From an uncultured Tenacibaculum sp. (GTDB lineage Bacteria > Bacteroidota > Bacteroidia > Flavobacteriales > Flavobacteriaceae), in NCBI RefSeq assembly GCF_947504135.1, contig NZ_CANNGG010000002.1, positions 532,363 to 596,362 on the forward strand: a stretch of 64,000 nt of DNA, in the 5' to 3' direction. Within the stretch, counting starts at the first letter, position 1; each line of letters begins with the position of its first letter. The translations under genes and the position numbers were made by a program. Below the pieces are notes generated by a model. It worked only from the letters and a program-made list of their open reading frames with translations, was not told where the DNA came from and did not search any database. Positions 7,518 through 26,216 of this stretch are shown here, one piece after another.

Positions 7518-7518
7518 T

Positions 7519-8856: not shown

Positions 8857-8866
8857 ATTTTATTGA

Positions 8867-8905: not shown

Positions 8906-8951
8906 CAATAATGACTTCTTGCGGTATTATTAATTTTAAAATGCATACCGT

Positions 8952-9245: not shown

Positions 9246-9262
9246 CCTAAAACCTTATAGAG

Positions 9263-11518
9263 ATGACAGCAGCTGTATCAGTCTTTAGAGACTTTGTATA
9301 TAAGGTTTCAGATAAACCTTTAGTAGAAGTGCTTAACGATATTAAAACAGGTACTTATAAAACCGAAATCGACAAAATAAGACACTTAATGTCTTTAGAT
9401 AAAGAAGAGGAAGCCGAAAACCTAAAAAAGCAATTATTAGGATTTACCGTGTCTGGAGTATTCGATAATTATAGAAGTAGTGAAAACCTTGAAGTTTACA
9501 CGCAATACATAATTTTAGATATTGATAAACTATCAGAATCAGAACTTAACCGAATCATTCCTGTTATAAATGTAGCACCTTATACCTATGCGTGTTTTGT
9601 TAGTACGAGAGGTAAAGGTGTAAAATTTATTGTGCGTGTAAATTCAAATGTAGAACAACATAAAACGGTTTATAATCAAGTAGTAGATTATTACGAACAA
9701 GCATTAAATACGGTAGTAGATACTTCTGGAAGCGACTATGCAAGATTATGTTTTATGTCTTACGACGAAAATTGCTATATCAATACAGAAGCAACAATTT
9801 TTGAAATCCAAGAAGAAGAAAAACAAACAACAACAGTAAGTGATGTTAATGCTAATAGTTATCAACAATTATCTACTGTAGAAATATTAAATAATTGCGA
9901 AGCGTTTACTAATCAAAAAGGCGAGTATCACGAAGGAAACAGAAATAACTACATATATCTATTTTCGGCAAACGCTTGTAGGTTTGGAGTTATAGAAGAA
10001 GACGCTTATCAATACTGTATTGCAAATTTTGATTTATCAGAAAGAGAAATAAAAACAACGGTTAGAAGTGCTTATAAAAGCAACAATGCAGACTTTGCAA
10101 AGTTTGCAAAATTTGCAAACGCTACAGTTTCAGAAGAAACACAAAATCAAGACAACCAAAACTTAGAAAGTTTATCGCTTTTAACAACTACACCAACTAT
10201 TCCAAAAGACGTATATAATTCATTGCCAATAATATTTCAAAAAGGATTAGAAGTGCTAAAAACCCAACGCGAAAAAGATGTATTTCTTACAGGAGCATTA
10301 AGCATTCTATCGGGATGCTTACCTAATGTTTTAGGTTTGTATGGAGGTAAAGAAGTTTATCCCAATTTATTTTCATTTCTATTAGCACCAGCAGCTTCAG
10401 GAAAAGGAGCCTTAACATACGCTAAAATGTTAGCCGATAAATACCATCAAGCGGTAATTCAAAATTCTAAAGATGAAGAAGCAGATTATAAAAAAGAATT
10501 AGAAGCGCAAAAGCAAGCCAAAAAGTATCTTAAAAAAGGAGAAGAAGCACCAGAGGAGCCAGCACAACCGCCTTTTAAAGTGGTTTATATTCCTGCAAAT
10601 ACAAGTAATGCGAAAATGATAAAGCATATCGAAGATAACGAGGGTTTTGGTATTATATGCGAAACCGAAGCAGATACTTTAGGGCAAACCTTTAAAAACG
10701 ATTGGGGTTCATATTCAGATTTATTACGTAAAGCCTATCATAACGAAAAAATATCCATTTCTAGAAAAACCAATAACGAGTATTTCGAAATCGATAACCC
10801 AAGATTGTCGGTGGTGCTTTCCGGCACACCTAATCAAATACTAAACATCATACAATCGGCAGAAGATGGTTTGTTTAGTAGATTTATGTTCTATGTGTTT
10901 GCATCCAATCCAGAGTGGTTAGACCCATCACCAAAATCCAATCCAGTTAATTTAACCGAACATTTTAAATACCTTTCAGATGATGTCTATCGTATGGTAA
11001 GATATTTAGAAAATACGGTGACTAATATTCATTTGTCAGATGCACAATGGGGAAAATTCAATCCGTTATTTGATGAATATTTATTTAGAATCTACAACTT
11101 AGTAAGTAAAGATGCTACAAGTGTAGTAAAGCGTTTAGGCTTAATGGTATATCGTTTTTGTATGATATTTACAGCCATAAGAAAATACGAGTATCAATTA
11201 AAAGATACCGATTTAGAATGTACCGACCATGATTTTGAAAATGCACTAAAGTTAGCCGATGTCTACTTACAGCACAGTATATTGGTATTTAAAAACTTAC
11301 CAAATAACGCTACAAATATGCAGTTTAAACCTACCTCGCCTAAAGCTAATTTCTTTAAAGAATTACCACAAGAATTTAGCAGAAAACAAGCAGTAACCAT
11401 TGGTGATAAATTAAAAATTAAAGTGCGTACGGTAGATAATTATTTAGCAAAACTAGAACAAGCAGGCTACTTAGTAAAACCTAAAGCGGGTTATTATCAA
11501 AAATTAAAGAGTTTGTAA
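9263..11518 (+). CDS. VirE-N/BT4734-like and DUF3987 domain protein (replication/primase-helicase type)
   Basis: The 751-aa protein combines a BT4734/VirE N-terminal-like region with a primase-like palm (residues about 10-180; TQYIILDIDKL, then CFVSTRGKGVKFIVRV) and a DUF3987 helicase-like C-terminal half (residues about 310-640). The latter has a P-loop-like APAASGKGALTYAK near residue 370 and an acidic motif GIICETEAD. A winged-helix-like tail ends the protein (FSRKQAVTIGDKLKIKVRTVDNYLAKL). Proteins of this architecture are typical of Bacteroidetes mobile elements and are thought to prime or unwind element DNA. Three perfect 9-bp TTTGCAANN iterons lie within its coding sequence and three more directly after its stop. 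Confidence 0.8.
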   Translation: MTAAVSVFRDFVYKVSDKPLVEVLNDIKTGTYKTEIDKIRHLMSLDKEEEAENLKKQLLGFTVSGVFDNYRSSENLEVYTQYIILDIDKLSESELNRIIPVINVAPYTYACFVSTRGKGVKFIVRVNSNVEQHKTVYNQVVDYYEQALNTVVDTSGSDYARLCFMSYDENCYINTEATIFEIQEEEKQTTTVSDVNANSYQQLSTVEILNNCEAFTNQKGEYHEGNRNNYIYLFSANACRFGVIEEDAYQYCIANFDLSEREIKTTVRSAYKSNNADFAKFAKFANATVSEETQNQDNQNLESLSLLTTTPTIPKDVYNSLPIIFQKGLEVLKTQREKDVFLTGALSILSGCLPNVLGLYGGKEVYPNLFSFLLAPAASGKGALTYAKMLADKYHQAVIQNSKDEEADYKKELEAQKQAKKYLKKGEEAPEEPAQPPFKVVYIPANTSNAKMIKHIEDNEGFGIICETEADTLGQTFKNDWGSYSDLLRKAYHNEKISISRKTNNEYFEIDNPRLSVVLSGTPNQILNIIQSAEDGLFSRFMFYVFASNPEWLDPSPKSNPVNLTEHFKYLSDDVYRMVRYLENTVTNIHLSDAQWGKFNPLFDEYLFRIYNLVSKDATSVVKRLGLMVYRFCMIFTAIRKYEYQLKDTDLECTDHDFENALKLADVYLQHSILVFKNLPNNATNMQFKPTSPKANFFKELPQEFSRKQAVTIGDKLKIKVRTVDNYLAKLEQAGYLVKPKAGYYQKLKSL
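10094..10120. repeat. three tandem 9-bp iterons TTTGCAANN inside the DUF3987 gene
   Basis: TTTGCAAAG, TTTGCAAAA and TTTGCAAAC follow without spacers and encode the peptide repeat FAKFAKFAN. The same 9-bp unit repeats three times at 11521-11547, just after the gene. Confidence 0.7.
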
Positions 11519-11638: not shown

Positions 11639-11830
11639 ATGAACCGAATTAAAGAAGTGCTGGAAGCCAAAGGCATAAAGCAAGTATGGTTAGCAGATAA
11701 ACTGGGTAAAAGTTTTAATACCGTTAATGGGTATGTGCAAAACAGAAAACAACCCAGTTTAGAAGTGTTATATGAAATAGCAGATATATTAAATGTAGAC
11801 CCAAAAGCATTGTTAGATACTAAAAAATAA
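11639..11830 (+). CDS. XRE-family HTH regulator (controller-like)
   Basis: This 63-aa protein is a single Cro/C1-type helix-turn-helix: an ALxxKGIKQxxLADKLGKSFNTVNGYVQNRKQPSLEVLYEIAD-like pattern, with the recognition helix around residues 27-38. It is the first gene of the restriction/defence block, 26 nt upstream of the methyltransferase gene, and a perfect inverted repeat lies over its promoter. By size, fold and position it resembles the controller (C) proteins that delay restriction relative to methylation after entry into a new host. That role is inferred. Confidence 0.85.
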   Translation: MNRIKEVLEAKGIKQVWLADKLGKSFNTVNGYVQNRKQPSLEVLYEIADILNVDPKALLDTKK

Positions 11831-11856
11831 ACCGCTTAATAAGCAGCAACTTACGT

Positions 11857-13881
11857 ATGAACAAAAAAGACATACTCAACAAAATAAAATCACTAGAAGG
11901 CCTAAACCAAGACGAACGTGCCTATTTGGTAAACTTGGTAAACACCAAAAAAAAATACGGCCTAGTATGGGAAGACAAACCAGAAGACGTAGAAGAGCAA
12001 CTACGCACTAAACTACCTGTACTGCAAGAGGTAAAAGAACGTGCCATTATTAACGATGCTGTCACCCTGAGCGTGGACACTGAGCGTAGTCGAAGTGCAG
12101 TCGAAGGGTCTAACCAAGAACCTAAAGCCAACCCAAACCACATCCTCATAGAAGGCGACAACCTACACGCTCTAACAGCACTTACCTTTACCCACGAAAA
12201 TAAAATAGACCTTATTTATATTGATCCACCTTATAACACTGGAGAGAAAGATTTTAGATACAATGATAGTTATGTTGATAAGGAAGATGCTTACCGTCAT
12301 AGCAAATGGTTGTCATTTATGGAAAAAAGGCTTCGAATAGCCAAAACGTTATTATCTGAAACGGGAGTAATGATTTGCCATATTGATGAGAATGAATATG
12401 ATAATTTGAGTATACTCACAAAAGAAATATTTAGTGAGCAAAATAATTTAGGTACAATAGTTTGGAATAAGAAAAACCCAAAAGGTGATGCTAAAGGAGT
12501 GGCTAATATGCACGAATATATCCTTTGTTTTGCAAGAAATCGTAAAGAATTTTTAAATCTTAATAATACATTATTAAAGGACAAGGAAAATGCCTCTTTA
12601 ATGATTAATAAGGCTAAAAGATTATATTCTAAAATCGGTAAAACAGAAATACCTAAAGAAATTAAAGATGTCTTAAAACCCTTTAATTTCTCTATAGATA
12701 TTTTGAAACAATTTGAAATTGAATATGATATTGAATTAGTAAATAAAGAATTCAAAGCTTGGTTGCAGAATCAGGATTTTTCAAAAGGAGAAAAAATGTA
12801 TAAATACATAGATAATGAAGGATTTGTTTATCGTGGTGTTTCAATGTCTTGGCCCAATAAACAAACAGCACCTGAAGATTACTTTATACCATTAAAACAT
12901 CCTATTACGAATAAAGATTGTCCTTTACCAAATAGAGGATGGAGAAACCCTTCAGCTACTATGAAAAAACTATTAGGAAACAAAGAGCCAATTAAAAACC
13001 CAGATGGTTCATTTTTGCAGGGAGAGATTTTATTTGGTAAAAATGAAAAAAAACAACCAGAAAGGAAATATAAACTTATTGAAAACCTAAAAGAGAATAC
13101 CTCATCTGTACTAAATTATGGTGGCAGTGATGATACCTTATTAGATAAATTAGATATTAATTTTCCTTATGTTAAACCAATTAATGTAGCTAAGTATTTA
13201 ATTAAATCTATTCATCCAAACCCTAATATTATATTAGATTTTTTTGCTGGAACAGGCTCTGTATTACACGCTACATTGGAAATTAACAAGCAAGATGATA
13301 ATAAAATAACTTGTTTTTTAGCAACTAATAATGAGGATAATATAGCAGAAGACTGCTATATTAGAAATAAAAGCGTAATCAACGGTGAAATTGATAACGA
13401 GAATTCAAATGAGAATCATTCTAACAACAACCTACGCTACTACAAAACCGCCTTTGTAGATAGAGAACCTTCTTTACAAAACAAACGACAGCTTACGCAA
13501 CTCGCTACAGAGCTACTGTGCATTAAAGAAGATTGTTATACAGAGGTGCAACACCAGTTAAGTATAAACCCAAAACAAGCACAAATATTTACCAACAACA
13601 AGGGTAAATACTTAGTGGCTATTTACCATTCCAGAAACCAACTGCAAGTACAAGAACAATTAATATCTTGGGTAGAGAGCTTAACCCACACCACAGAAAA
13701 AGTACGTTTGTATGCCTTTAGCCCAGAAAAAGAAGTACTGGCAGAAGAGTTTTACGAGGTGGCAGAAAAGGTAGAAGTGGTTCCTTTACCAGAAGCCATT
13801 TACAATGCGTATCTAAGTACCATAAAAGCGTTAAAATTAGATAAAAAACAAGTGTATAACAACAATACTGCTGAGGCATAA
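11857..13881 (+). CDS. mod: type III restriction-modification DNA methyltransferase (Mod)-like
   Basis: The protein (674 aa) is an amino-methyltransferase of the beta order: catalytic motif DPPY at residues 123-126 (IDLIYIDPPYNTGEKDF) precedes the AdoMet-binding motif FAGTGS at 463-468. The stretch between, about 230-450, is the expected target-recognition region and is AT-rich compared with the ends, as if exchanged. The length fits type III Mod subunits, and the next gene is a Res-like helicase-nuclease. Residues 69-85 are encoded by an inserted palindromic repeat (12061-12111). It probably methylates adenine in a short asymmetric site, but specificity cannot be read from sequence. Confidence 0.9.
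   Translation: MNKKDILNKIKSLEGLNQDERAYLVNLVNTKKKYGLVWEDKPEDVEEQLRTKLPVLQEVKERAIINDAVTLSVDTERSRSAVEGSNQEPKANPNHILIEGDNLHALTALTFTHENKIDLIYIDPPYNTGEKDFRYNDSYVDKEDAYRHSKWLSFMEKRLRIAKTLLSETGVMICHIDENEYDNLSILTKEIFSEQNNLGTIVWNKKNPKGDAKGVANMHEYILCFARNRKEFLNLNNTLLKDKENASLMINKAKRLYSKIGKTEIPKEIKDVLKPFNFSIDILKQFEIEYDIELVNKEFKAWLQNQDFSKGEKMYKYIDNEGFVYRGVSMSWPNKQTAPEDYFIPLKHPITNKDCPLPNRGWRNPSATMKKLLGNKEPIKNPDGSFLQGEILFGKNEKKQPERKYKLIENLKENTSSVLNYGGSDDTLLDKLDINFPYVKPINVAKYLIKSIHPNPNIILDFFAGTGSVLHATLEINKQDDNKITCFLATNNEDNIAEDCYIRNKSVINGEIDNENSNENHSNNNLRYYKTAFVDREPSLQNKRQLTQLATELLCIKEDCYTEVQHQLSINPKQAQIFTNNKGKYLVAIYHSRNQLQVQEQLISWVESLTHTTEKVRLYAFSPEKEVLAEEFYEVAEKVEVVPLPEAIYNAYLSTIKALKLDKKQVYNNNTAEA
12061..12111. 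repeat. palindromic interspersed repeat inserted in frame in mod
   Basis: The segment opens GTCACCCTGAGCG and closes GTCGAAGGGTCT, with an inner CACTGAGCGTAGTCGAAGTG. Nested inverted pairs ACCCT/AGGGT and CACT/AGTG are visible, and its base composition is GC-rich against its surroundings. It is translated as VTLSVDTERSRSAVEGS without breaking the frame. I remember this CCTGAGCGTAGTCGAAGGG type of repeat as widespread in Bacteroidetes intergenic regions. Confidence 0.75.
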
Positions 13882-13896
13882 AATTCTTAATTTACT

Positions 13897-16248
13897 ATGT
13901 ACATTTTAAAAGATTTTCAAGAAACAGCAGTCACCAGTTTGTTAGAAAACACCTATACTGCATTACAAGAACCTACCAAACAAACCCCTATTTTATTAGA
14001 ATCGCCAACAGGTTCGGGTAAAACCGTAATGATGGCATCGTATATAGAGCGGTTGGTAGACGAGCTACAACTTAAACCAGGCTATAACAGTAATATGGCT
14101 TTTGTATGGTTAGCACCCAACACGCTACATATACAAAGTTACCACGCTTTGCAAAATCTTTATAGCGATACCCAAAAACTAAATTGTATAGATTTAGACA
14201 ATCTAGGAAGCAATCCTATATTAAACGCTAAAGATTTATTGTTTCTTAATTGGAGTAGCATACATTCTGCCAAAAATATTTGGAGAAAAGACAACGAAAC
14301 CAATACCAACCTAGAAACCCTAATAGAAAACACACAGGCTAATGATACTAGTATAGTGCTAATAATAGACGAAGCGCATTTAAGTGCCTTTAGTGGCAAA
14401 CAAGCCATAGCAGTACGTAATTTAATAGAAGCAGATGTAGAAGTATTGGTAACCGCTACAGCACATAACATACAACGTCCTCAATTATCGGTATTTGTGC
14501 CAAGACAAAAAGTAGTAGAGCAAGAACTCATTAAAAAAGGAATTCGTTTAAATATTGGTTTAAATCCAGAAGAGCAAAACGGAGAAAATGTACATATGCA
14601 TTTGCTTCGCAAAGCCTTTCAGAAAAAAGAAGAATTAAAAGCGTTATATGCGCAAGAGTTAGGCGAAAACAAAGTAAATCCGTTATTGCTAATTCAATTA
14701 CCATCAGATAACGTTTCCTTAAGTTCAGAAGACAAGTCTATTAGAGATACCTTAGTAGGATTGTTAAATGCCGAGTACAACGTAACTACCCAAAACGGAA
14801 GACTGGCTATATGGCTAAGTGGCGAAAAAGATAAAGATGGTATTGAAGACATCAATGCAATGCAAGATGTAATGATTTTTAAACAAGCAGTAGCACAAGG
14901 TTGGGACTGTCCTAGAGCAGCCATATTGGTAAGTTATAGAACGGTTAATAGTCCTTCTTTTGGGATTCAAACCGTGGGTAGAATTTTACGTATGCCACAC
15001 CGTAAACACTACAATAACGACGATTTAAATTATGGATATGTTTATACCAATATAGAATCTACTCGTATTAACTTTGAACCTTCAGATGCAGATTTTATCA
15101 ATTTTCAATTGGCAAAAAGAAAAAAAGACAGAGGTTGGGTTTTTGATAAAATAAATTCTGCTCAAATAGTAAACGACCGTGCTGCAAAAGGGGTATTAAC
15201 CTCTACCTTTCAAACGCATTTTTTCAACCTAATGGAACAGCGTTTTAGTGTAGCTATGTTACCCGATGTAGATTTATTTACTACTGAAGTAGAGGAAAAT
15301 TTAAAAGAAGCAAAAGAAGCTAATTTATTAGCAATGCAACAAAATGGTTGGGAGTTCAAGGTAGACGATCACCAAATACCAATTCCTGTAGATATTGAGG
15401 CAGACCCATATATTGTAAATAGCATTATGGTAAATGCAGACCATACCAAGCAGTTTGCTATTACTATGAATCAGTTTAATACAATGTTCGAGCGTTTTTG
15501 TTATGACAATATAACTAGGCTTAACCGTTCCAAAAGCTGGAAAAAACTAAGAGATGTGTTACTCTTTTTTGCCGAATATTATTTAGGATTGTTTGAGCAC
15601 GAAGCCAAACGTATCTATTTATTTCCTCAAAATAGAAGATTACTAGAAGAGTTAATTGTAGTAGCATTAGAACGTTTTGAGCAATGGCAAAAAGCAAAAG
15701 GAAACGAAAAACGAAGAGTGGAATACGCAAGTTGGGAAGTGCCAGAATATCGTTACTATAGCGAAAATTTCAACAAGCAATATATAGATAGTCACGCTAT
15801 GGAGCCTTTTTATGAATACATAAGCGTATCTAGTCCAGAAAAAAAATTCAAAGAGTTTTTAGAAGCCAACAACGAACATATAGAATGGTGGTACAAAAAT
15901 GGAGATGCAGGAAAAGAACATTTTGCTGTACCTTATATAAAACAAGTAGACGAAAAGCTAGAAAGACCTAGCCTATTTTATGTAGATTTTGTAATAAAGT
16001 TCAAATCTGGTAAAATGGGGTTATTCGATACCAAAACAAAACGTTCAGACTTAGATGCACCTAAAAAGCACAACGCACTTCTAGAGTATATAGAAAAAGC
16101 CAACCAAGAGGCTAACAATGAAAATTTATTGGGTGGTGTGTTAATAGAAGAACCCATAGACTCTAATCATTGGAGGTTTTGTGCGAATAGAATAGAAGAT
16201 ACAAAAGACTTAACAGGTTGGGAGTTTTTAAAACCAGAATTACTTTAA
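13897..16248 (+). CDS. res: type III restriction-like DEAD/DEAH helicase-endonuclease (Res)
   Basis: This 783-aa superfamily 2 helicase has Walker A SPTGSGKT at residues 36-43, the Walker B box DEAH at 158-161, motif III TATAHN, and motif VI QTVGRILRMPHRK. Near the C-terminus a possible PD-(D/E)xK nuclease core is visible as Asp697 (YVDFVI) and Asp711-Thr-Lys713 (LFDTKTKR). That order fits type III Res subunits, which translocate and cleave after meeting unmodified sites. It follows mod by 15 nt. The nuclease assignment rests on the short motif only. Confidence 0.88.
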   Translation: MYILKDFQETAVTSLLENTYTALQEPTKQTPILLESPTGSGKTVMMASYIERLVDELQLKPGYNSNMAFVWLAPNTLHIQSYHALQNLYSDTQKLNCIDLDNLGSNPILNAKDLLFLNWSSIHSAKNIWRKDNETNTNLETLIENTQANDTSIVLIIDEAHLSAFSGKQAIAVRNLIEADVEVLVTATAHNIQRPQLSVFVPRQKVVEQELIKKGIRLNIGLNPEEQNGENVHMHLLRKAFQKKEELKALYAQELGENKVNPLLLIQLPSDNVSLSSEDKSIRDTLVGLLNAEYNVTTQNGRLAIWLSGEKDKDGIEDINAMQDVMIFKQAVAQGWDCPRAAILVSYRTVNSPSFGIQTVGRILRMPHRKHYNNDDLNYGYVYTNIESTRINFEPSDADFINFQLAKRKKDRGWVFDKINSAQIVNDRAAKGVLTSTFQTHFFNLMEQRFSVAMLPDVDLFTTEVEENLKEAKEANLLAMQQNGWEFKVDDHQIPIPVDIEADPYIVNSIMVNADHTKQFAITMNQFNTMFERFCYDNITRLNRSKSWKKLRDVLLFFAEYYLGLFEHEAKRIYLFPQNRRLLEELIVVALERFEQWQKAKGNEKRRVEYASWEVPEYRYYSENFNKQYIDSHAMEPFYEYISVSSPEKKFKEFLEANNEHIEWWYKNGDAGKEHFAVPYIKQVDEKLERPSLFYVDFVIKFKSGKMGLFDTKTKRSDLDAPKKHNALLEYIEKANQEANNENLLGGVLIEEPIDSNHWRFCANRIEDTKDLTGWEFLKPELL

Positions 16249-16266
16249 AACTTAAATAGCCTATAA

Positions 16267-17250
16267 ATGGAAAAAGGAGATATTTTAATCTATACCAACC
16301 AAGAGGGGAACATCAAAATAGATGTGCGCCTTCAAGAAGAAACCGTTTGGTTAACCCAAGAACAAATGGCTTTACTCTTTAATAGAGATAGAAGTGTAAT
16401 AACCAAGCATATAGGTAAAATTTTTAGTGAAGGTGAGCTAGATGAAAAAAGCAATGTGCAAAAAATGCACATTAGTACTTCAGATAAACCTATAAAAATT
16501 TACAACTTAGATGTCGTTATTTCTGTAGGTTATAGAGTAAAATCACAACAAGGTACACAATTTCGTATTTGGGCAACACAGCGTTTAAAAGAATACATCA
16601 TAAAAGGTTTTACACTTAATGATGACCGTTTTAAAACAGGAACCTCTATGAACTATTTTAACGAACTGCAAAACCGCATTCGTGAAATACGTATCTCAGA
16701 AAAATTCTTTTATCAAAAAATAAAAGACATTTATGCCACCAGTATAGATTATAATCCTAAAGACGAAAAAACCATTCAATTCTTTAAAATTGTACAAAAC
16801 AAATTGCTTTGGGCTATTAGTCAAAAAACAGCTGCAGAGTTAGTGTATAGGCGTGTAGATGCATCATTACCTTTAATGGGAATGTTAGCGTACGACAAAA
16901 AAAACAAATCGGTTACAAAATCCGAAGCAGGTATTGCTAAAAACTACTTAAACGAAGATGAAATGCGTTTACTAGGACTTATTGTAGAACAATACTTAGC
17001 GTTTGCCGAAACTATGGCGCAACAACAAACACCAATGTATATGAAAGATTGGGTGCAACGGTTAGATGCTATTTTACAATTAAACGGTAGAGAGCTGTTA
17101 ACCCACGCTGGTAAAATAAGTCAAGAAATGGCTAAGAATAAAGTGGCTAAAGAGTATCAAAAATACAAAGAAGAAAACAAGCGATTATCTTACGAAAAAA
17201 GCCTTAAAGAGTTAGAAAAAGACATAAAAAAACTAAAAGACAAAAAATAA
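16267..17250 (+). CDS. RhuM family protein
   Basis: The 327-aa product carries the RhuM-family pattern: VRLQEETVWLTQEQMALLF (a helix-turn-helix-like start), the block VISVGYRVKSQQGTQFRIWA and TQRLKEYIIKGF, then a helical C-terminal half and a lysine/glutamate-rich tail. The name comes from a Salmonella pathogenicity-island gene, but these proteins are frequent within restriction-modification and other defence islands, often between methylase and restriction genes. The biochemical activity is unknown. It lies 18 nt after res and is in the same operon. Confidence 0.85.
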   Translation: MEKGDILIYTNQEGNIKIDVRLQEETVWLTQEQMALLFNRDRSVITKHIGKIFSEGELDEKSNVQKMHISTSDKPIKIYNLDVVISVGYRVKSQQGTQFRIWATQRLKEYIIKGFTLNDDRFKTGTSMNYFNELQNRIREIRISEKFFYQKIKDIYATSIDYNPKDEKTIQFFKIVQNKLLWAISQKTAAELVYRRVDASLPLMGMLAYDKKNKSVTKSEAGIAKNYLNEDEMRLLGLIVEQYLAFAETMAQQQTPMYMKDWVQRLDAILQLNGRELLTHAGKISQEMAKNKVAKEYQKYKEENKRLSYEKSLKELEKDIKKLKDKK

Positions 17251-17283
17251 GGTAATCACCTTAGGCAATATAAAAATAGTATT

Positions 17284-17502
17284 ATGAGCAACAAAGGACT
17301 AGATTCTCTATTTATACATTACGGCATACGTAAAGACGATATGGTAACCATAGAGACTATTTGCGAAAAGTATGAGGTTGAAGCAGAATGGCTAAAAGAA
17401 TATTTCTTAAAAGCCTATCACGAGAAAAAAATTAAAAATGAAGACTTAGACGAAAAGGCATTAAAAAAGCTAATGGAAAAAGCACTTCAAAAAATAAAAT
17501 AG
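17284..17502 (+). CDS. small acidic/basic helical protein of the DndD-like operon
   Basis: This 72-aa protein has a short hydrophobic core (LDSLFIHYGI) and a charged helical C-terminus rich in Lys and Glu. It sits 2 nt before the DndD-like gene, so the two are surely co-translated. Similar small proteins accompany DndD-like genes in other DNA-modification-type defence loci, as far as I remember. A role as an adaptor of the ATPase is a guess. Confidence 0.65.
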   Translation: MSNKGLDSLFIHYGIRKDDMVTIETICEKYEVEAEWLKEYFLKAYHEKKIKNEDLDEKALKKLMEKALQKIK

Positions 17503-17504
17503 TT

Positions 17505-19505
17505 ATGTTAATAAAAAGAATAAGAGCTAAAAATTTTAAAACATATCTAGAACTCGATATAAATCTAGAAACAGACCCAGACAAACCTATTGTATTAATA
17601 GGTGGTGCTAATGGTGGTGGTAAAACAACTTTTTTTGATGCTATTTACGGTGCATTGTATGGCTTAAACATATCCAACGATAAAGAATTTAACGAGTTGC
17701 TTAATGCTGGTGCTTTGGGTAAAATTGAAGAAAAAATTGAATTAGAATTATTTTTTTCAGGCAGAGTACTAAACCAAGAACAGTCCTATGTGCTTACAAG
17801 AACCTATATGCTCAATACAGCCAAAAAACCTGTAGAAAGTGTAAAGCTAAATATGAATGGTTCCATTTTTCAATACGGTACTGCAACACCTACAGCGCAA
17901 AGAGCAGAACAAGAAGCGCAAGTAAATAAAATTATAAAAGGAAATCTACCTGAAGAGTTAAGTCGCTATTTCTTATTTGATGCTATGGAGGCTGGGAGCC
18001 TTTTAAAAGAAGACCGCCTTAATCGTGTAATTCGTGAAAATATTGAAAATGTTATGGGCTTCAATAGATACTTGTCGTTTGCTAAAGCAGCCGAAAGTCT
18101 TACACAAGATTATACAGCTCAAATGCTCGATTTAGAAAACGAAAAGAAAGAATATTTACAATTAGTAGAACAAAAACGTAAAGAAGAAGAAGCTTTAACC
18201 GAGTTAAAAGGAAAACGTAAAGAAGCGCTAGATTTTTCAGTATCTAATAAAGATTTGTACGATACGTTAAAGGCAGGTATGAATGAAGAATCTACACTAA
18301 ACAATAAGGTAAAACAGTTAGAAGAAGAGCTAAGTAATCTAGATAAAGAGGAAAAGCAATACAAAACTGATGTAAACGATTTTATTAAAAATTTTGAAAT
18401 GCACGTAAGCTTACCAAAATTAGCTGAGGTGTTACAAAATGATATAGCCTTAATTATAAACGAACGTGAAACTTCCAATGCAGATGCCTACACGCATTTA
18501 AACAAAGAAGTGATAGAAAACGTATTGATAAAAGCTGTAAACGTACTTGCCGATAAAGGACATAATTTAAAAGACGTGTCAGTAAGTCAATTAGCAGATA
18601 AAGTATTAAAATCATTAGAAGATAAAAACACAGATTTAGAATACGATTATTTTCAAATTTCAGAAATTGAAGCTTTAAAAAAATTAGCAAATGGTAATTA
18701 TCAAAATCCTTACAATTCTATTACTCACCGTAAAGAAAATCTAGATAAAGATATTGCCAACGCGCACAAGATTAAAAAACAAATAGAAGATTTAAAAGCA
18801 CAAATTACAGGAAAAGACTATTCTTTAATTAAAGCCTATGAAGAGAATGAAAGTGCAATTAAAACCTTGAAATCTGAAATTGAGGATAAGGATAAAGAAG
18901 TAAAAAAGATAGCAAAACGTTTACAACAATTTGATATTCCAACTACAGAAGAACCAGACCCTAAATTTGAAGCTTTAAAAAAATTACAACCCTTGTTTGA
19001 TGAAATAGCAAATACGTTGCTTAAAAACAAAAAAGATAAAATAGAAGATAAAATGAAACACGATTTAAACGTTAATCTTGCGGCTTATCAAGATGTTATA
19101 GATCGTGTAGAGTTATCAGAAGATTTAAAAGATCTAAACTTTAGTATTTATCATAAAGCAGGTAACGAAATCTATTTAAGTCAACTAAACACAGCGTCTA
19201 CACAAGTAGTGGTACAAGTGCTATTAAAGGCGTTGCACGAATTTGGCGATTACGACCCACCTGTAATGATAGATACAGTTATGGGTGTATTAGATGAAAC
19301 AAGCCGAAGCACCTTGTTAGAAAATTACTTTCCAGAATTATCACATCAAACCATATTATTAAGTTCTGATAGTGAGGTAAGACCTAATTCAGATTTGCAA
19401 AAAATAGAACCTTTTGTAGCCAAAGCATATACATTACTTAGAGATAAAGAAGCTCAAAAAACAAATGTTACAGAAGGGTATTTTGGTAATTCTATAAACA
19501 ATTAA
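17505..19505 (+). CDS. DndD-like SMC/Rad50-type ATPase
   Basis: The 666-aa protein resembles DndD, the ATPase of phosphorothioation systems, in length and in its ends. The N-terminal Walker A is GGANGGGKT at residues 33-41 (PIVLIGGANGGGKTTFFDA). Long coiled coils fill about 195-530. The C-terminal ATPase half carries a degenerate signature segment (SQLNTASTQVVVQVLL) and Walker B with the catalytic acidic pair in VMIDTVMGVLDE (584-598). No DndA, DndB or DndC gene is nearby, so it is unlikely to act in sulfur modification here. A DNA-end or structure-sensing role in restriction is more plausible. Its stop codon overlaps the start of the next gene. Confidence 0.82.
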   Translation: MLIKRIRAKNFKTYLELDINLETDPDKPIVLIGGANGGGKTTFFDAIYGALYGLNISNDKEFNELLNAGALGKIEEKIELELFFSGRVLNQEQSYVLTRTYMLNTAKKPVESVKLNMNGSIFQYGTATPTAQRAEQEAQVNKIIKGNLPEELSRYFLFDAMEAGSLLKEDRLNRVIRENIENVMGFNRYLSFAKAAESLTQDYTAQMLDLENEKKEYLQLVEQKRKEEEALTELKGKRKEALDFSVSNKDLYDTLKAGMNEESTLNNKVKQLEEELSNLDKEEKQYKTDVNDFIKNFEMHVSLPKLAEVLQNDIALIINERETSNADAYTHLNKEVIENVLIKAVNVLADKGHNLKDVSVSQLADKVLKSLEDKNTDLEYDYFQISEIEALKKLANGNYQNPYNSITHRKENLDKDIANAHKIKKQIEDLKAQITGKDYSLIKAYEENESAIKTLKSEIEDKDKEVKKIAKRLQQFDIPTTEEPDPKFEALKKLQPLFDEIANTLLKNKKDKIEDKMKHDLNVNLAAYQDVIDRVELSEDLKDLNFSIYHKAGNEIYLSQLNTASTQVVVQVLLKALHEFGDYDPPVMIDTVMGVLDETSRSTLLENYFPELSHQTILLSSDSEVRPNSDLQKIEPFVAKAYTLLRDKEAQKTNVTEGYFGNSINN

Positions 19506-21094
19506 TGATGGAAGAAATAGCATTACATAATATAAGGCAAAGCGAAGGGTTAATTGATAGCCTATTACCTTTAAAACATAAAATTGAAAAAAAATTAAAC
19601 CTAAAAGAATATCGTAAAGAAGCAAAACAGTTAACGTTAAACAATAATTTATTACAACGTTTAACATTAGCAGCAGGTTTAAGTCAAAATCACAAACGAT
19701 CTTGGTCAGACATCGAAAAGGTAGCAATGGATAGTTTAAGAATCCACGAAACAACCTTTACTAAATTCAACTTACAAGTAATGTGGTCAAGTCTTATAAA
19801 ATATCGATATAATCATATAGATATAGATTGGTCAGTAGCTGCTAATCGTAGTCGTATAATCAATTACGAGATGCAACAAGGCTTAAAATATTTAATGGAT
19901 GATAATAATCTTGATAATTGGTTAACAATTACTGCTAAATCTGGTAATACTTCATTTGGCACAGTACCATTCTTAGATTTAAATATTGGGTTATTTGAAG
20001 GTGATATGCCGGCAACCTTAAACCTAAACGGTAGGCAAATACCTAACACACAAATTTTAATTGCAGGTTCAACAGGTTCTGGTAAATCAAACCTTTTAGC
20101 GGTATTAATGCGTGAAATGCGTACCTTAACAGTAGAAACAGCATATCCAGTAAACTTTTTATTTTTCGATTATAAAGGAGAATTTTCAGACCCTGCCAAT
20201 CGCTCTTGGTTTAATCACTTTGAAATTGATGATGATGCTGTTCTAGACCCAATAAAAAAACCTTTACCTTTTTCACCTTTTAAAAATTTTGAAGGAAAAA
20301 CTCAAAATGAAATTAACCTATACGCTACAGAACTAGCCAATGCTATCTGTGCAATAGACAATGCACGTATGAGTGCAAATATGAGTAATAGATTGGCAGA
20401 AGCAGTAATTGCTTCATACAGAAAGACAAAAAACAAACCTGTTTCATTTCAAATTATTCTAGATCAATACAATCATTTACAAAACGAAAAAGACCGTCAA
20501 AAAGACGATAGTATCAAATCAGTATTAAAGCAATTAATTAGAAATAACTTATTTGCAACAGAAGATAATATCGATTTAATTAACAATAGTTTTATTGTGA
20601 AAATGGATGGTTATCCCAAAGATGGTCCATTGGCAAAAGCAATTGTATATTTTATCATTTCTAAATTAAATACGATTTATGAAAAACTGCCAAAACAAGA
20701 AGTAACTGAAGAATGTGTAGAAATTCGACATTTTACAATTATAGACGAAGCACATTATATGTTAGATTTTGATAATAAGCCATTAAGAGATTTAATAGCT
20801 GTAGGAAGAAATAAAGGGTTAAGTATCATCTTGGCAACACAAAATATGGATAGTTACAAGTCTAAATATTTTGACTTCTATGCTAATGCACAATATCCTT
20901 TAATAATGAAACAGCAATCCATTACAGATGCTGTGATCAAAGATTTATTTGGGGTTTCAGGTAACGAGTTTCAAGAAATAAAAGAAGCAATTGCAGGTTT
21001 AGCACTAGGGGAATTAATCATTAAAGACAATACAAATATTGTATTAGGTATGGGTAAAAAGTTCAAAAAAATTAAGGTAAATAGGTTTATATAA
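19505..21094 (+). CDS. HerA/FtsK-like ATPase with an N-terminal DndE-like region
   Basis: This 529-aa P-loop motor protein has Walker A GSTGSGKS at residues 188-195 and Walker B FTIIDEAHYM (Asp414, Glu415). The following segment, LRDLIAVGRNKGLSIILATQN, is typical of HerA/VirB4/FtsK ATPases. The first 120 residues are helical and lie where DndE would be in a Dnd operon; I can see only weak likeness, so that name is tentative. Translation is coupled to the DndD-like gene through a 1-nt TAATG overlap, arguing for fixed stoichiometry. It probably forms a ring that moves DNA for the nucleases of the cluster. Confidence 0.8.
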   Translation: MMEEIALHNIRQSEGLIDSLLPLKHKIEKKLNLKEYRKEAKQLTLNNNLLQRLTLAAGLSQNHKRSWSDIEKVAMDSLRIHETTFTKFNLQVMWSSLIKYRYNHIDIDWSVAANRSRIINYEMQQGLKYLMDDNNLDNWLTITAKSGNTSFGTVPFLDLNIGLFEGDMPATLNLNGRQIPNTQILIAGSTGSGKSNLLAVLMREMRTLTVETAYPVNFLFFDYKGEFSDPANRSWFNHFEIDDDAVLDPIKKPLPFSPFKNFEGKTQNEINLYATELANAICAIDNARMSANMSNRLAEAVIASYRKTKNKPVSFQIILDQYNHLQNEKDRQKDDSIKSVLKQLIRNNLFATEDNIDLINNSFIVKMDGYPKDGPLAKAIVYFIISKLNTIYEKLPKQEVTEECVEIRHFTIIDEAHYMLDFDNKPLRDLIAVGRNKGLSIILATQNMDSYKSKYFDFYANAQYPLIMKQQSITDAVIKDLFGVSGNEFQEIKEAIAGLALGELIIKDNTNIVLGMGKKFKKIKVNRFI

Positions 21095-21112
21095 TCAAGC
21101 TAAAATTAATTT

Positions 21113-22591
21113 ATGCACCAACTCACCAAAACAGATTTTAAGTATTATTTAGACTGTCCAGAGTCTATTTGGTTATTAAAAAATAAGCCAGAGGTATATC
21201 CTAAAGGTGAGTTTTCGTTATTTGCAGAAAAGTTAATAAAAGAAGGTTACGAAGTAGAAGCCTATGCAAAACAATTATTTCCAAACGGTGTAAACTTACC
21301 AGAATATGGCAGTCCTACAGCAACACAAAACGCATTAACAGATACACATAGTGTTTATTTTCAGCCATCATTTAGCACAAATAAAGATGTATTTGCACGT
21401 ATAGATATATTAGAGCGGTTAGCAGATGGTACGTGGCATATCTATGAAGTAAAATCTTCTACCTCAATAAAAAAAGATAGAAAGCATAGACAAATAGAAG
21501 ATGCCTGTTTTCAGAAATATGTATTGACTGAATGTGGTTACGTAGTTTCTAAAGTATCTATTATCCATTTAAACAAAGAGTATTTAAAAAAAGGTGATAT
21601 TGTAGCTAATGAGTTGTTAGAAATTGCAGATATAACAGATGCAGTAGATAACATCTATTCAAGTGTAGTCAATCAAATTAATGCAGCTTCTAATTTTATA
21701 AATAAGGCAATCATAAATGAAACTGTATGTTCTTGTAAGTATAAAACAAGGTCTAATCATTGTGATGCTTTTAACTATTTTAATACCACTATTCCAGACT
21801 ATAGTATTTATGAAATAGGTCGTATTTCAGCTAAAAAAGTAGGTTTATTAGCAGATAATGAGCAATTAGCAATTATTGATATTCCTTTAGATTTTGAGTT
21901 AAATGTAAATCAACAAACCCAAGTAAAATCTGTAAAACAAGAGCAACCTATAATCAATCAATCTAATATCAAAAGAGAGTTAAGTAAATTAAAATTTCCA
22001 CTACATTTTATAGATTATGAAACCTATGCAAGTGCTATCCCAAGATTAGATGGTTTAAGTCCACATAAACATTTAACTTTTCAAGTATCTATTCATACAC
22101 TTACAGAAGATGATACTTTAACTCATTTTGAATATTTATTGGATGCTATGAATATGCCAAAAGATATGCTACAAGCAATGCAAGACTTTACAGGTAGTAC
22201 AGGAACGTTTGTTTCGTGGCACGCAAGTTTTGAAATTGGCAGAAATAAAGACTTAATAGAATGGTTGCCACGGTTTACCAATTATCTTACTTACATTAAC
22301 GAGCATACGTTTGATTTAGAAACTATTTTCAAAAAAGACTACATAGACTATCGTTTTCACGGTTCAAGTTCCATTAAAAAAGTATTACCTGTATTGTGCC
22401 CAGATATAAGCTACTCAGATTTAGATGTTAATAATGGCACTATGGCATTAGATACTTGGGGAAGAATGGTTTTAGACCCAAATTTTAATGAAGATATAGA
22501 AGCAACAAGAAAAAAACTTTTAGACTACTGCGAATTAGATACTTTGGCAATGGTTAAAATTTATGAGGTGTTAACTAAAATCATATCTTAA
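21113..22591 (+). CDS. Cas4-like / DnaQ-like fusion nuclease (DUF2779)
   Basis: The 492-aa protein seems to join two nuclease folds. The N-terminal half looks like Cas4/RecB-type PD-(D/E)xK: ARIDILERLADG, then IYEVKSST give the Asp...Glu-x-Lys core. Cys14 (YLDCPES) together with the CSCKYKTRSNHC cluster near residue 205 could hold an Fe-S cluster. The C-terminal DUF2779 half has RNase H-like exonuclease motifs FIDYETY (DxE), WHASFEIGR, FDLETIF and YCELDTLAM. It would suit degradation of cleaved foreign DNA. It follows the HerA-like gene by 18 nt. Confidence 0.8.
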   Translation: MHQLTKTDFKYYLDCPESIWLLKNKPEVYPKGEFSLFAEKLIKEGYEVEAYAKQLFPNGVNLPEYGSPTATQNALTDTHSVYFQPSFSTNKDVFARIDILERLADGTWHIYEVKSSTSIKKDRKHRQIEDACFQKYVLTECGYVVSKVSIIHLNKEYLKKGDIVANELLEIADITDAVDNIYSSVVNQINAASNFINKAIINETVCSCKYKTRSNHCDAFNYFNTTIPDYSIYEIGRISAKKVGLLADNEQLAIIDIPLDFELNVNQQTQVKSVKQEQPIINQSNIKRELSKLKFPLHFIDYETYASAIPRLDGLSPHKHLTFQVSIHTLTEDDTLTHFEYLLDAMNMPKDMLQAMQDFTGSTGTFVSWHASFEIGRNKDLIEWLPRFTNYLTYINEHTFDLETIFKKDYIDYRFHGSSSIKKVLPVLCPDISYSDLDVNNGTMALDTWGRMVLDPNFNEDIEATRKKLLDYCELDTLAMVKIYEVLTKIIS

Positions 22592-23346
22592 TGTATCATT
22601 ACGAAGAATACATAAAATTTAAAGAGCGTTATATAAATAATATAAAATCAATTAAGGAAATAGTTAAGTATCCGAAAATATCTATAGCTGATAAACCAAA
22701 CATTGAACTAAAACAGTCTGTTTCATCATATGAGTTGATTTTTGATAGGGTTGGCAGATTGTTGCTTGTTCAAAAACTCAATAGTAATTACTCTTATGTT
22801 TATAGCTATAATGAAAAACAGTTAGAATCTATTGAAGAACTATGTAATGGTAGAGTTACAATGATTAATAAAATTAATTATGATAACAGTAGTAGGATAA
22901 TAGAAGAGGATATTCAAGAGACTTTTCAAGATAAAGACAGTCGTATTGAAAACCTCTCGTATAAATATATAAATGGAAACACTGTTATTATTAATAAAGT
23001 GACCACGATGGATGATGCTGATTTTATTGCAACTGAAACTTATAATGATAAGAGACAGCTGATAAGTCAGAAATTAGAAGATGAAAAGGAAGTTATTTAC
23101 TTTGATTTTTTTGAATATGACCTAAACGGTTTTAAAACAAAACAAATAATGGCGAATGCTGACGGCTCATACGATTTGAATGATATAAGGAAATACAACT
23201 ATAATGGTAAAGGCCTTATTATTTCTGAAGATGGTATTATAACTTATGAGTATAAGTATAACTCATTAGGTGATTGGATTGAACGTATAAGATATAAAGA
23301 AGGTATTTTACAATATGTAACTCATCGCCAATTAGAGTATTATTAA
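22591..23346 (+). CDS. YD/RHS-repeat-like protein, last gene of the defence block
   Basis: This 251-aa protein has no signal peptide. It contains repeated aromatic-Asn/Asp motifs (YSYNEKQLES, TYNDKRQLIS, YNYNGKGLII, YKYNSLGDWIE) of the kind that build RHS/YD-type beta-strand repeats. Its ATG overlaps the stop of the nuclease gene by 1 nt (TAATG), so it belongs to the cassette's transcript. I do not recognise a catalytic domain; it could be a binding or sensor protein, or a hitch-hiking gene. Confidence 0.6.
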   Translation: MYHYEEYIKFKERYINNIKSIKEIVKYPKISIADKPNIELKQSVSSYELIFDRVGRLLLVQKLNSNYSYVYSYNEKQLESIEELCNGRVTMINKINYDNSSRIIEEDIQETFQDKDSRIENLSYKYINGNTVIINKVTTMDDADFIATETYNDKRQLISQKLEDEKEVIYFDFFEYDLNGFKTKQIMANADGSYDLNDIRKYNYNGKGLIISEDGIITYEYKYNSLGDWIERIRYKEGILQYVTHRQLEYY

Positions 23347-23742: not shown

Positions 23743-24192
23743 ATGCAAGTCAGAAAATTATATAATACAAGAGCAATTGAATTTTATGGTGCAGATGTTT
23801 CAACACATCTAAAATTGCCTTTTGTGGCTAATGGTATAAGCGCAGGGTTTCCATCCCCAGCAGATGATTTTTTAGATATAAACATAGACCTCAATAAACA
23901 TCTAATTAAAAACCCAAGCACAACATTTTACGGTCGTGTTCGTGGTGATTCAATGATAGATGCAGGTATTCACGATGGTGATTTACTAATTATTGATAAA
24001 AGTTTAGAACCTACAAATAACAAAATAGCTGTTTGTTTTATAGATGGTGAATTTACAGTTAAGCGCATCAGCATAGAAAAAGACTGTGTTTGGTTAATTG
24101 CAGAGAATCAAAATTACAAACCTATACAAGTCACTAAAGACAATGATTTTATCATTTGGGGTATTGTTACTAACGTAATCAAAAACCTATGA
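23743..24192 (+). CDS. umuD: UmuD-like S24 autoproteolytic protein (DNA polymerase V accessory subunit)
   Basis: UmuD is cleaved with RecA filament help, and the short form activates UmuC for translesion synthesis. The likely cleavage site is Ala34-Gly35 in ISAGFPSPADDF, with the Ser70 nucleophile in RGDSMIDAG and Lys107 in FTVKRIS. The 149-aa length fits. Its stop is 1 nt before umuC, so the pair forms an operon. LexA-type repressors share this fold, but the lack of a DNA-binding domain and the umuC neighbour make UmuD the right call. Confidence 0.93.
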   Translation: MQVRKLYNTRAIEFYGADVSTHLKLPFVANGISAGFPSPADDFLDINIDLNKHLIKNPSTTFYGRVRGDSMIDAGIHDGDLLIIDKSLEPTNNKIAVCFIDGEFTVKRISIEKDCVWLIAENQNYKPIQVTKDNDFIIWGIVTNVIKNL

Positions 24193-24193
24193 T

Positions 24194-25453
24194 ATGTTCG
24201 CACTCGTTGACTGCAATAACTTTTACGCTTCCTGTGAGCGTGTTTTTAACCCATCATTAAATGGTAAACCTGTTGTGGTTTTGTCAAACAATGATGGTTG
24301 TGTTATTGCAAGATCCAACGAGGCAAAAGCGTTAGGTATTCCAATGGGCGCACCTGCATTTGAATATTCTAAAACATTTGAAAAACAAAACGTAAACGTT
24401 TTTTCTTCAAATTACGCTTTATATGGCGATATGAGTAGCAGAGTGATGAATCTACTTTCAGAGTTTACACCAGAAGTTGAAATATACAGTATCGACGAAG
24501 CATTTTTAAAGTTTATAGGTTTTGAACTTTTTAGCCTTCAGGAAATAGGTGAAACAATGCGTAATCGTGTAACAAAAGGTACAGGTATTCCAATAAGTAT
24601 TGGCTTTGCACCAACAAAAGCATTATCTAAAGTTGCCAATAAAATAGCAAAGAAATTCCCAGAACGTACTAACAATGTTTATGTAATAGATGATGAAGAA
24701 AAGCGCATAAAAGCCTTAAAGTGGTTACCAATCGAAGATGTTTGGGGTATTGGTAGGCAACATACCAAAAGACTAAAAAACTTAAATATTCATAATGCTT
24801 TTCAATTTTCCCAACTGTCAGATGATTGGGTGCGTAAAAATATGTCTGTTGTTGGTTTACGTCTAAAACACGATTTAGAGGGTAAACCTACTTTAGATTT
24901 AGAAACTACTGCAAACAAGAAAATGATAGTAACAACACGTTCATTTGAGGGTATGCTAACATCATATCAAGATATTAGAGAACGTGTATCTACTTTTGCT
25001 GTGTCCTGTGCAGAAAAACTTCGTAATCAAAAATCACAATGCAATATGCTTATGGTATTTTTGCATACCAACGGTTTCCGAAAAGATTTACCTCAATATG
25101 GTAGAAACATTGCAGTAAAAACACACTATCCAACCAATTCGAGCATTGATTTAGTTAAATATGCAGAAGCAGGGTTACAAGCAATTTATAGAGAGGGCTT
25201 TCATTATAAAAAAGCAGGGGTTATTGTAATGGGTTTAACCCCAAGTAATCAAAAACAATTCACACTATTTACTTCCGAAAACCCAAAGCACCAACCTATA
25301 ATGAATATCGTAGATAGGCTAAATAAAGCTTACGGTAACAATAAAATAAAGTTTGGTAGTCAATCATTAGGTAGGCAATGGAAAATGAAACAAGAACGCC
25401 TATCCCCACGATATTCAACCAACATTAATGAAATAATCGACATAAGAGTTTAA
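24194..25453 (+). CDS. umuC: Y-family DNA polymerase UmuC (polymerase V catalytic subunit)
   Basis: This 419-aa error-prone polymerase copies past DNA lesions. It has the palm motifs FALVDCNNFYASCERVF at the start and YSIDEAFL near residue 99 (the catalytic Asp-Glu pair), then the helix-hairpin-helix region (WGIGRQHTKRLKNL), the little-finger domain, and a UmuC C-terminal extension (GSQSLGRQWKMKQERLSPRYST). It follows umuD by 1 nt. It lies on the mobile element, so it would add damage-induced mutagenesis to a new host. Confidence 0.95.
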   Translation: MFALVDCNNFYASCERVFNPSLNGKPVVVLSNNDGCVIARSNEAKALGIPMGAPAFEYSKTFEKQNVNVFSSNYALYGDMSSRVMNLLSEFTPEVEIYSIDEAFLKFIGFELFSLQEIGETMRNRVTKGTGIPISIGFAPTKALSKVANKIAKKFPERTNNVYVIDDEEKRIKALKWLPIEDVWGIGRQHTKRLKNLNIHNAFQFSQLSDDWVRKNMSVVGLRLKHDLEGKPTLDLETTANKKMIVTTRSFEGMLTSYQDIRERVSTFAVSCAEKLRNQKSQCNMLMVFLHTNGFRKDLPQYGRNIAVKTHYPTNSSIDLVKYAEAGLQAIYREGFHYKKAGVIVMGLTPSNQKQFTLFTSENPKHQPIMNIVDRLNKAYGNNKIKFGSQSLGRQWKMKQERLSPRYSTNINEIIDIRV

Positions 25454-25484
25454 TTAGTATATTTAGTAACCTAAATAAAACCTT

Positions 25485-26216
25485 ATGTGTTTCCATACTT
25501 CTCAAACAAAAAAAGTAATTGAGCTTGAAAACCGCTATGATGTTTCATTGACAAGGGATGATGCAAGAGAAGCTTATGATATTCCAAGATACCACTTAAA
25601 CGGTTTTTCTCATCCTGATATGCTGATAATACCACAAGAAGGTCCATCAGCTTTAGCACCTGCATTATGGGGTATAGTTCCAGGCAATAAAAAACCTGAA
25701 CATTTAACCGATTATTACAAAGAAGCTGTTCGGTATGGTGGTGGTCTTAATGCTCAATCCGAAAAATTATTTAATCATTTTATATACAAACATTCAGCCT
25801 TAACAAGACGTTGTATAATTCCAGTAACAGGATTTTTTGAACCTCACGAGTACAAAGGAAAAAAATATCCATTTCATATAAAGAACAAAAACAACGATGT
25901 TTTGTCTTTAGCTGGGTTATATACAATAATTGGGGATGTTGTTACCTTTACTATTCTTACTAAAAAAGCATCACCATTATTTGCAAAAATTCATAATAAA
26001 AAAAATAGACAACCGGTAATACTTCAAAAGGACTTTGAACAAGAATGGTTAAAAGATGATTTAAACGAAAACGGCATTAATGAATTAATTAATCTTAATT
26101 ACAATGAGAACGAGTTAAGCACATATACAGTTAGTCGTGATTTATTTCAAATTAAAATTAACACAGATACAGAATCAATTATTGATGAAGTAAAATATGA
26201 AGGTGTAATAATTTAA
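25485..26216 (+). CDS. SOS response-associated peptidase family protein (SRAP, YedK/HMCES-like)
   Basis: SRAP proteins crosslink covalently to abasic sites in single-stranded DNA through the N-terminal cysteine exposed after Met removal. Here Cys2 (MCFHTSQ) is present, as are the glutamate in TGFFEPHEY and the histidine in FAKIHNKKNRQPVIL. The usual NAR(S/A)E motif reads NAQSEK, an Arg-to-Gln change. At 243 aa it is a normal size. It lies 31 nt after umuC and completes a three-gene SOS set. Confidence 0.9.
   Translation: MCFHTSQTKKVIELENRYDVSLTRDDAREAYDIPRYHLNGFSHPDMLIIPQEGPSALAPALWGIVPGNKKPEHLTDYYKEAVRYGGGLNAQSEKLFNHFIYKHSALTRRCIIPVTGFFEPHEYKGKKYPFHIKNKNNDVLSLAGLYTIIGDVVTFTILTKKASPLFAKIHNKKNRQPVILQKDFEQEWLKDDLNENGINELINLNYNENELSTYTVSRDLFQIKINTDTESIIDEVKYEGVII

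Follow-up and report, generated by a model that had tools for sequence, protein, structure and literature searches.

Five genes in a 64,000-nucleotide (nt) stretch of DNA from an uncultured Tenacibaculum sp. (the window: assembly GCF_947504135.1, contig NZ_CANNGG010000002.1, positions 532,363 to 596,362 of the forward strand) were found to belong to a cassette that recurs in other genomes and is no chance neighbourhood. They encode a type III DNA methylase (Mod), its restriction partner (Res), a 72-amino-acid (aa) small protein, a DndD-like ATP-binding cassette (ABC) ATPase and a HerA-type ATPase with a DndE-like N-terminus (DndE-HerA). A preliminary description of the window had proposed that nine genes here form one defence operon, in which type III restriction-modification (RM) genes are joined to DndD-like and HerA-like genes and methylation serves as the mark of self. 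We see an even chance that the five proteins work as one restriction system based on methylation, with a DndD/DndE-HerA motor that would assist or gate cutting by Res. The cassette is likely an antiviral system that would spare the DNA of its host through methyl marks rather than sulfur. This assessment is drawn from sequence and predicted fold, namely the gene set, its order and spacing, the motifs of Mod, Res and HerA, a DndE-like fold and the fact that no sulfur-marking gene was found.

Gene order in related loci

The DndD-like protein was scanned against one genome per species, which returned 57 loci, mostly from Bacteroidota. Addition of the window and removal of L048 (a duplicate of L010) and L058 (a match of 54 residues) gave a set of 56, in which gene presence was scored by tblastn. 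The order Mod-Res-small protein-DndD-HerA on one strand was seen in 36 of the 56 loci, the window included, and Mod was not seen in 7 further loci, which had the remaining four genes in the same order; none of the 56 had the core genes in any other order. Among loci whose DNA reached far enough, each partner was usually present: the small protein (47 of 51 loci), Res (36 of 40), Mod (32 of 36) and HerA (51 of 54). Of the 36 loci that have long flanks at both ends, 32 carried all four partners of DndD. The exceptions were L031, L033, where the edge of the retrieved DNA cuts Res so that Mod was not seen, and L040 and L044, which are distant relatives from Ignavibacteriota/Kapabacteria. The possibility that the two halves occur mostly apart in other genomes therefore fails when viewed from DndD. 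When the genes of the loci were clustered, five families occurred in 41-60 loci each and the next neighbour family in 7, counts in which the window, duplicates and also four loci with stand-alone Mod-Res are included. Between neighbours the median gap was 6 nt for Mod-Res (31 pairs), 6 nt for Res-small protein (28), 5 nt for small protein-DndD (35) and 3 nt for DndD-HerA (50).

The extent of the cassette can be seen from its nearest relative, in Algibacter pectinivorans (L002). When this locus was compared by blastn with positions 1-30000 of the window, only 11857-12321 (in two pieces, 87 and 78% identity) and the last 7.7 kb, 13423-21094 (94.4%), matched, and the outer limits of these matches are the ATG of Mod (11857) and the stop codon of HerA (21094). 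The XRE-type gene, the DUF2779 gene and the last gene of the nine lie outside this homology, which contradicts the proposal that all nine genes form a unit. The nine-gene block was rejected across the loci as well, as DUF2779 and XRE were each found in one other locus and the last gene in none. An Aequorivita locus (L025) matches the window in four pieces of Mod (73-85%) and then over 17275-21094 (79.5%), which covers the small protein, DndD and HerA, and its Res is of a different subtype from that of the window. Parts have apparently been swapped between cassettes here and yet kept together.

Some observations concern where the cassette is found. Contig NZ_QMDV01000006.1 of Pontibacter arcticus carries a 22-kb neighbourhood with the cassette twice, with identical gene lists, at 18388-40376 (L010) and 92725-114713 (L048), either through segmental duplication or as an artefact of assembly. 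In L075 (MT835906.1, 'Bacteriophage sp.', from human faeces) the five-gene cassette directly follows relaxase-like and integrase-like genes (labelled by eye); although labelled as phage this sequence, in which phage genes were not searched for, looks like a mobilisable element. A scan of viral contigs with the DndD alignment found no relatives, and a scan of plasmids found only distant DndD proteins, the best being 23.6% identical over the full length. In broad genome samples, with the Tenacibaculum genome counted, DndD was found in 1 of 59 (this genome only) and 3 of 395 genomes, and Res in 5 of 395 and 7 of 299.

Predicted proteins and the mark of self

Mod (674 aa, 11857..13881; this and all genes described below lie on the + strand) matches N6_N4_Mtase (E-value 4.1e-32) and the PADLOC model MTase_III (2.5e-72), and is predicted from its intact motifs to be a beta-class adenine-type DNA methylase. 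DPPY precedes FAGTG in the window Mod. Across the loci there are 33 Mod proteins longer than 550 aa; all of them have DPPY and 30 have the second motif, the spacing in those 30 being 264-343 residues. Both flanks of the middle of Mod match A. pectinivorans by blastn, with no match between 12321 and 13423, and the least conserved stretch of Mod over 31 loci falls in the same place. This part (12322..13422) is the predicted target recognition region, and it appears to have been replaced relative to A. pectinivorans. Three loci (L023, L024 and L032) have at least two Mod genes or pieces in tandem ahead of Res, as if two specificities were carried together.

Res (783 aa, 13897..16248; ResIII, 1.7e-15) has a superfamily 2 (SF2) helicase and a C-terminal PD-(D/E)XK nuclease, as judged from the ResIII match and motifs. 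Walker A, DExH and D697...D711-x-K713 did not vary among the 13 Res proteins aligned, and all three patterns were present in 35 of 39 DndD-linked Res. The only PADLOC match of Res was to REase_III, and Res is the sole recognised nuclease of the conserved core. The motif hallmarks of type III RM were thus found in both proteins: a Mod with DPPY before FxGxG and a variable region, and a Res with helicase and nuclease.

The small protein (72 aa, 17284..17502), left unexplained in the preliminary description, belongs to the Sp-DndD family (PF20306; 40.1 bits against a cut-off of 27.2, 4e-10), described in Pfam as a 'small protein found in certain Dnd DNA modification systems'. It has no match in PADLOC, and its size and position are similar to those of PbeB. 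The DndD-like ABC ATPase (666 aa, 17505..19505) matches the PADLOC models for DndD (3.3e-59) and PbeC (1.6e-51) and aligned with a canonical DndD at 97.5% by hhalign; its score with NCBIfam DndD (TIGR03185) was 185.6 bits, which is under the cut-off of 245.85. Walker A and Walker B are retained in all 36 members of this DndD clade, and a CxC/CxxC zinc hook was found in none of them.

The HerA part of the fifth protein (529 aa, 19505..21094) matches DUF87 (1e-9), and HerA catalytic motifs are present in its sequence. Its N-terminus (19505..19942) is predicted to be a DndE-like double ribbon-helix-helix domain, an assignment made because a fold search of that part alone pointed to it. DndE was not shown by the fold search of the whole protein, no DndE sequence model was among the matches listed for the N-terminus, and hhalign of the N-terminus against a single DndE gave a probability of 1.5% (P 0.034). 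Relatives of the HerA protein number at least 1303 in public sets at 1e-20, and several of 120 listed ones bear source names such as EcfA2 or VirB4 component, which are probably misannotations.

The preliminary description had stated that DndA-E are absent. No match to DndC (TIGR03183) or to the DndE model PF08870 was found in the whole Tenacibaculum genome, and DndC was also missing from 22 of 25 carrier genomes and present on other contigs in 3 of the 25. When DndC, DndB, DndE and PbeC of L074 (Bacteroidota) were used as tblastn queries, no match at 1e-4 was obtained in any of the 57 loci, in the window or in L075; these queries do recover themselves, and single queries can miss distant relatives. 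The claim of absence stands for DndC at the level of the genome, a level at which DndA and DndB were not searched for. It does not stand for DndE and DndD, as there is a DndE-like fold within the HerA protein and a relative of DndD is present. With no DndC found and a DndD under the curated cut-off, the locus does not qualify as a canonical Dnd system. Since no sulfur-marking gene was found in the loci and the Mod-Res-DndD-HerA cassette recurs, methylation in place of phosphorothioate would be the natural reading, in agreement with what was first proposed. The block could instead act on sulfur-marked DNA, as a Dnd variant using DndC and DndA encoded elsewhere in the genome. Such an arrangement is in line with the 3 carriers that have DndC on another contig and with the placement of DndE-fused HerA among phosphorothioate-modification systems in the available text of PMC10853773. 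However, DndC was not found in the Tenacibaculum genome, in the other 22 carriers or in any locus, and the operon has a methylase instead, so this explanation is considered very improbable.

If the five proteins do form one system, Mod would place N6-methyladenine (m6A) on its own site as the mark of self, and Mod-Res would read unmethylated sites in invading DNA. Dimers of the DndD-like protein may clamp DNA in the manner of Rad50/SMC proteins, with the DndE domain as a DNA-binding partner, and a HerA ring would pump DNA. Res is presumed to do the cutting, since no other nuclease was recognised in the core and since HerA motors are often paired with a nuclease. The 72-aa protein, like PbeB, may be an obligatory coupler or brake. 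The whole would then be a methylation counterpart of PbeABCD, with Res corresponding to PbeA, the small protein to PbeB, DndD to PbeC, DndE-HerA to PbeD and Mod to DndCDEA. In its full form, the proposal is of a Bacteroidota system that uses N6-adenine methylation by a type III Mod as the self-mark of a Dnd/Pbe machine, in which a complex of Res, small protein, DndD and DndE-HerA would load on, pump and cut unmethylated DNA while recognition regions and Res subtypes are exchanged. We hold this fuller version tentatively, at slightly less than even.

Gene histories and genes inserted into the set

Trees were built without broken or short genes (Res and DndD below 600 aa, Mod and HerA below 480 aa; for split genes the longer open reading frame (ORF) was used). 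After this filter 39 linked Res remained, and 31 loci had long versions of all four genes. In these 31 loci the tree of DndD agrees with that of HerA in 19 of 28 splits (r 0.78). The other pairs share fewer splits (Res-Mod 6, Res-DndD 9, Res-HerA 8, Mod-DndD 3, Mod-HerA 3), and their distances are nonetheless correlated (r 0.34-0.54, Mantel p 0.001). In the Res tree the 39 full-length DndD-linked Res and 6 stand-alone Res lie on opposite sides of a branch with support 100/98, recovered in 200 of 200 bootstrap trees. Parts have thus been exchanged without the set breaking up, which argues for a joint function.

A different explanation is that the operon holds two independent modules, an ordinary type III RM pair and a separate system of the small protein, DndD and DndE-HerA that would sense invading DNA unaided, the two being kept together solely by selection on mobile defence islands. 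The conflicting histories of the DndD-HerA block and of Mod and Res would be expected from this. The block is also retained without Mod or Res in L031, where neither was found in the locus or the genome, and in L027, whose contig is short and where no Mod or Res was found in the locus and no Res in the genome. Of 11 genomes with a Res-less locus, 9 had no Res elsewhere, 1 had a stand-alone-type Res and 1 had a Res elsewhere in the genome. In this last genome the contig ends 248 nt past Res, as at an assembly break. Several Res-less loci are cut at DndD or are the distant Ignavibacteriota/Kapabacteria relatives (L040, L044, L050), which lie beside other genes and lack Mod and Res. Viewed from Res, the question of whether the halves occur apart was addressed with a tiny sample of nine other genomes. 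This gave two in-clade Res outside the window, one with the DndD block (L087, probably the same genome as L024) and one without it (fragment L089). A Res clade strictly exclusive to DndD was thus rejected, and no DndD was found in the L089 genome (88% complete), in a search among eight Res genomes that had no positive control. However, the set has one gene order wherever it occurs, with gaps of a few nt and 32 of 36 loci complete, all 39 linked Res fall in one clade, and the DndD block has no recognised nuclease of its own. Two independent modules are for these reasons considered a rather unlikely explanation, though the strongest of the alternatives. In Kapabacteria L044 (7890-12067) the DndD homologue (43% identical) follows DBI_PRT and CobS (cobalamin-type) genes, and it is possibly a housekeeping relative.

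The loci that separate the two halves (L031, L027, most of the Res-less genomes and L089) weigh against a single five-gene system, and so do a few other points. The Res tree is biased, as the loci were collected via DndD and the tool gave a long-branch warning. The correlation of Res and DndD distances (r 0.34, Mantel p 0.001) means that exchange has been partial. Four of the 39 linked Res each lack one of the three motif patterns. The ABC signature of the DndD clade, LN[TA]ASxQ at residues 561-567 in 36 of 36 members, is atypical compared with LSxGxxQ, and the canonical DndD of L074 has LSKGEQQ. The Ser and Gly of the ABC signature usually contact ATP, and both are replaced in this clade. Finally, no cleavage of viral DNA was seen with archaeal PbeABCD, according to the available text of PMC6459918.

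Genes other than the core five occur within the set. In the window a RhuM family protein (327 aa, 16267..17250; Virulence_RhuM, 5.7e-97) lies between Res and the small protein, a slot that it occupies elsewhere only in L002, L034 and L035. An Abi_2 family gene lies between core genes in 7 loci, one of which (L028) was confirmed by Pfam, the others being assigned by clustering. Other slots hold Schlafen AlbA_2 (L015), Fic (L037), DUF1016 (L036), Panacea/MqsA (L053), a pair of AAA_21 ATPases (L045), or a superfamily 1 helicase accompanied by one PIN and one AAA protein (L033). RhuM therefore appears to be one cargo among many. As several slot genes (Abi_2, Fic, Schlafen AlbA_2, RhuM, Panacea/MqsA) are of abortive-infection or toxin-antitoxin type, layered defence seems to be a habit of these loci. 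This would suit a model in which the DndD/DndE-HerA block serves as a back-up and is switched on only if a phage anti-restriction protein inhibits Mod-Res. There is a precedent in PrrC, found beside type I enzymes. However, the block encodes no recognised toxin or nuclease and is part of the core rather than a slot gene, which makes a back-up role improbable.

Flanking genes and related systems

The preliminary description had placed nine tightly packed genes on the + strand of this region, and the ORF list agrees with it exactly. The gaps are 26 nt for XRE-Mod, 15 for Mod-Res, 18 for Res-RhuM, 33 for RhuM-small protein, 2 for small protein-DndD and 18 for HerA-DUF2779, and DndD-HerA and DUF2779-last gene each overlap by 1 nt. 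A consensus scan of the + strand found no terminator-like site between the nine genes, one within Res and one in the gene at 24194. Promoter-like sites numbered 49 compared with a mean of 58.7 in shuffled sequence and are hence uninformative on separate promoters.

Profiles from Pfam, PADLOC and NCBIfam bore out the gene labels for eight of the nine. The first gene encodes an XRE-type helix-turn-helix regulator (63 aa, 11639..11830; HTH_3, 4.5e-12), which is a probable controller of the operon, outside the conserved core. It occurs in one other DndD locus (L005, 4 kb upstream of Mod), and similar genes directly precede the stand-alone Mod-Res pairs L072, L090 and L091. Downstream, the DUF2779 protein with an RNase H-like domain (492 aa, 21113..22591; DUF2779 1.9e-29, RNase_H_2 1.8e-6) is a neighbour, possibly cotranscribed. 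Its DUF2779 label agrees with these matches, and its likeness to Cas4 is weak (PADLOC, 1e-4). It was rejected as the nuclease of the cassette, as its only other occurrence among the loci lies 7 kb downstream of HerA. The suggestion that extra nucleases were added to the system is doubtful, because DUF2779 is rare in these loci and Res is the only nuclease recognised in the core. The last gene (251 aa, 22591..23346) had been labelled as a YD-repeat protein, which was not confirmed because it gave no family match at 1e-3 in Pfam, PADLOC or NCBIfam. Upstream of the block (6222-11518) are a tyrosine integrase (PF00589), a 445-aa companion without a family, an HTH_17 protein and a DUF3987/BT4734-like protein, which suggests an integrative element. 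After a gap of 396 nt downstream, umuD-like, umuC-like and YedK/SRAP-like genes (labelled by eye) occupy 23743-26216.

The cassette shares Mod and Res, with their usual motifs and Mod first, with type III RM systems such as EcoP15I. Those systems need only Mod and Res, whereas the cassette adds three conserved genes with two motors. The closest likeness in gene order is to DndCDEA-PbeABCD, where an SF2-helicase restriction protein is followed by a protein of about 70 aa, a DndD/CxC-type ABC ATPase and DndE. In the available text of PMC6459918 (Xiong et al. 2019), PbeA has a Res-like domain and a helicase, PbeB is 66 aa and PbeD 152 aa; PbeB, PbeC and PbeD are all essential and PbeA partly so, and protection requires the mark. 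According to the same source, 155 of 320 solitary PbeAC pairs have methylases nearby, and its authors suggest that PbeABCD may pair with methylases too. However, the cassette Res has a PD-(D/E)XK nuclease where PbeA has an HKD/PLD nuclease fused to its SF2 helicase, the cassette ATPase lacks CxC even though PbeC models match it, DndE is fused to HerA, and Mod stands where DndCDEA is.

The pair of a clade-3 DndE-fused HerA beside a DndD-related ATPase is, by description, the same as one reported by Rakesh et al. 2024 (PMC10853773). There it is counted as phosphorothioate modification, whereas the cassette pair is tied to an adenine-type Mod-Res and DndC was not found. The available text of PMC10853773 counts DndCDEA-PbeABCD among CxC-ABC ATPase-DndE systems and reports cytosine methylases with CxC systems, and in that text no mention was found of a Mod-Res linkage of the DndE-fused HerA. 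The cassette is filed as a variant of the ABC ATPase-DndE anchored systems. In comparison with DndFGH/DptFGH, there is no DndF, DndG or DndH-sized multidomain protein among the nine proteins, to which this comparison was confined; the large DndH has inactive methylase and nuclease domains, and the cassette HerA matches only the C-terminal HerA part of DndH. MADS is similar in being methylase-linked with a HerA/FtsK-like ATPase (mad8 match, 3e-18), but no other mad model was among the matches listed at 1e-3 for the nine proteins. Krishnan et al. 2020 reportedly first classified these ATPases. The combination of an adenine-type Mod-Res with DndD and DndE-HerA was not met in the literature searched, though Krishnan et al. 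2020 may hold the linkage.

In teaching, type III enzymes are presented as machines of two proteins, and DndD and DndE-HerA as sulfur-marking machinery; a conserved operon in Bacteroidota welds the two. Xiong et al. 2019 suggested that modules of the Pbe type may combine with methylases, and the cassette gives this idea the concrete form of a recurrent gene set. The role of the DndD-DndE core apart from sulfur also becomes testable, as the same motor would be paired with an ordinary m6A mark that can be sequenced.

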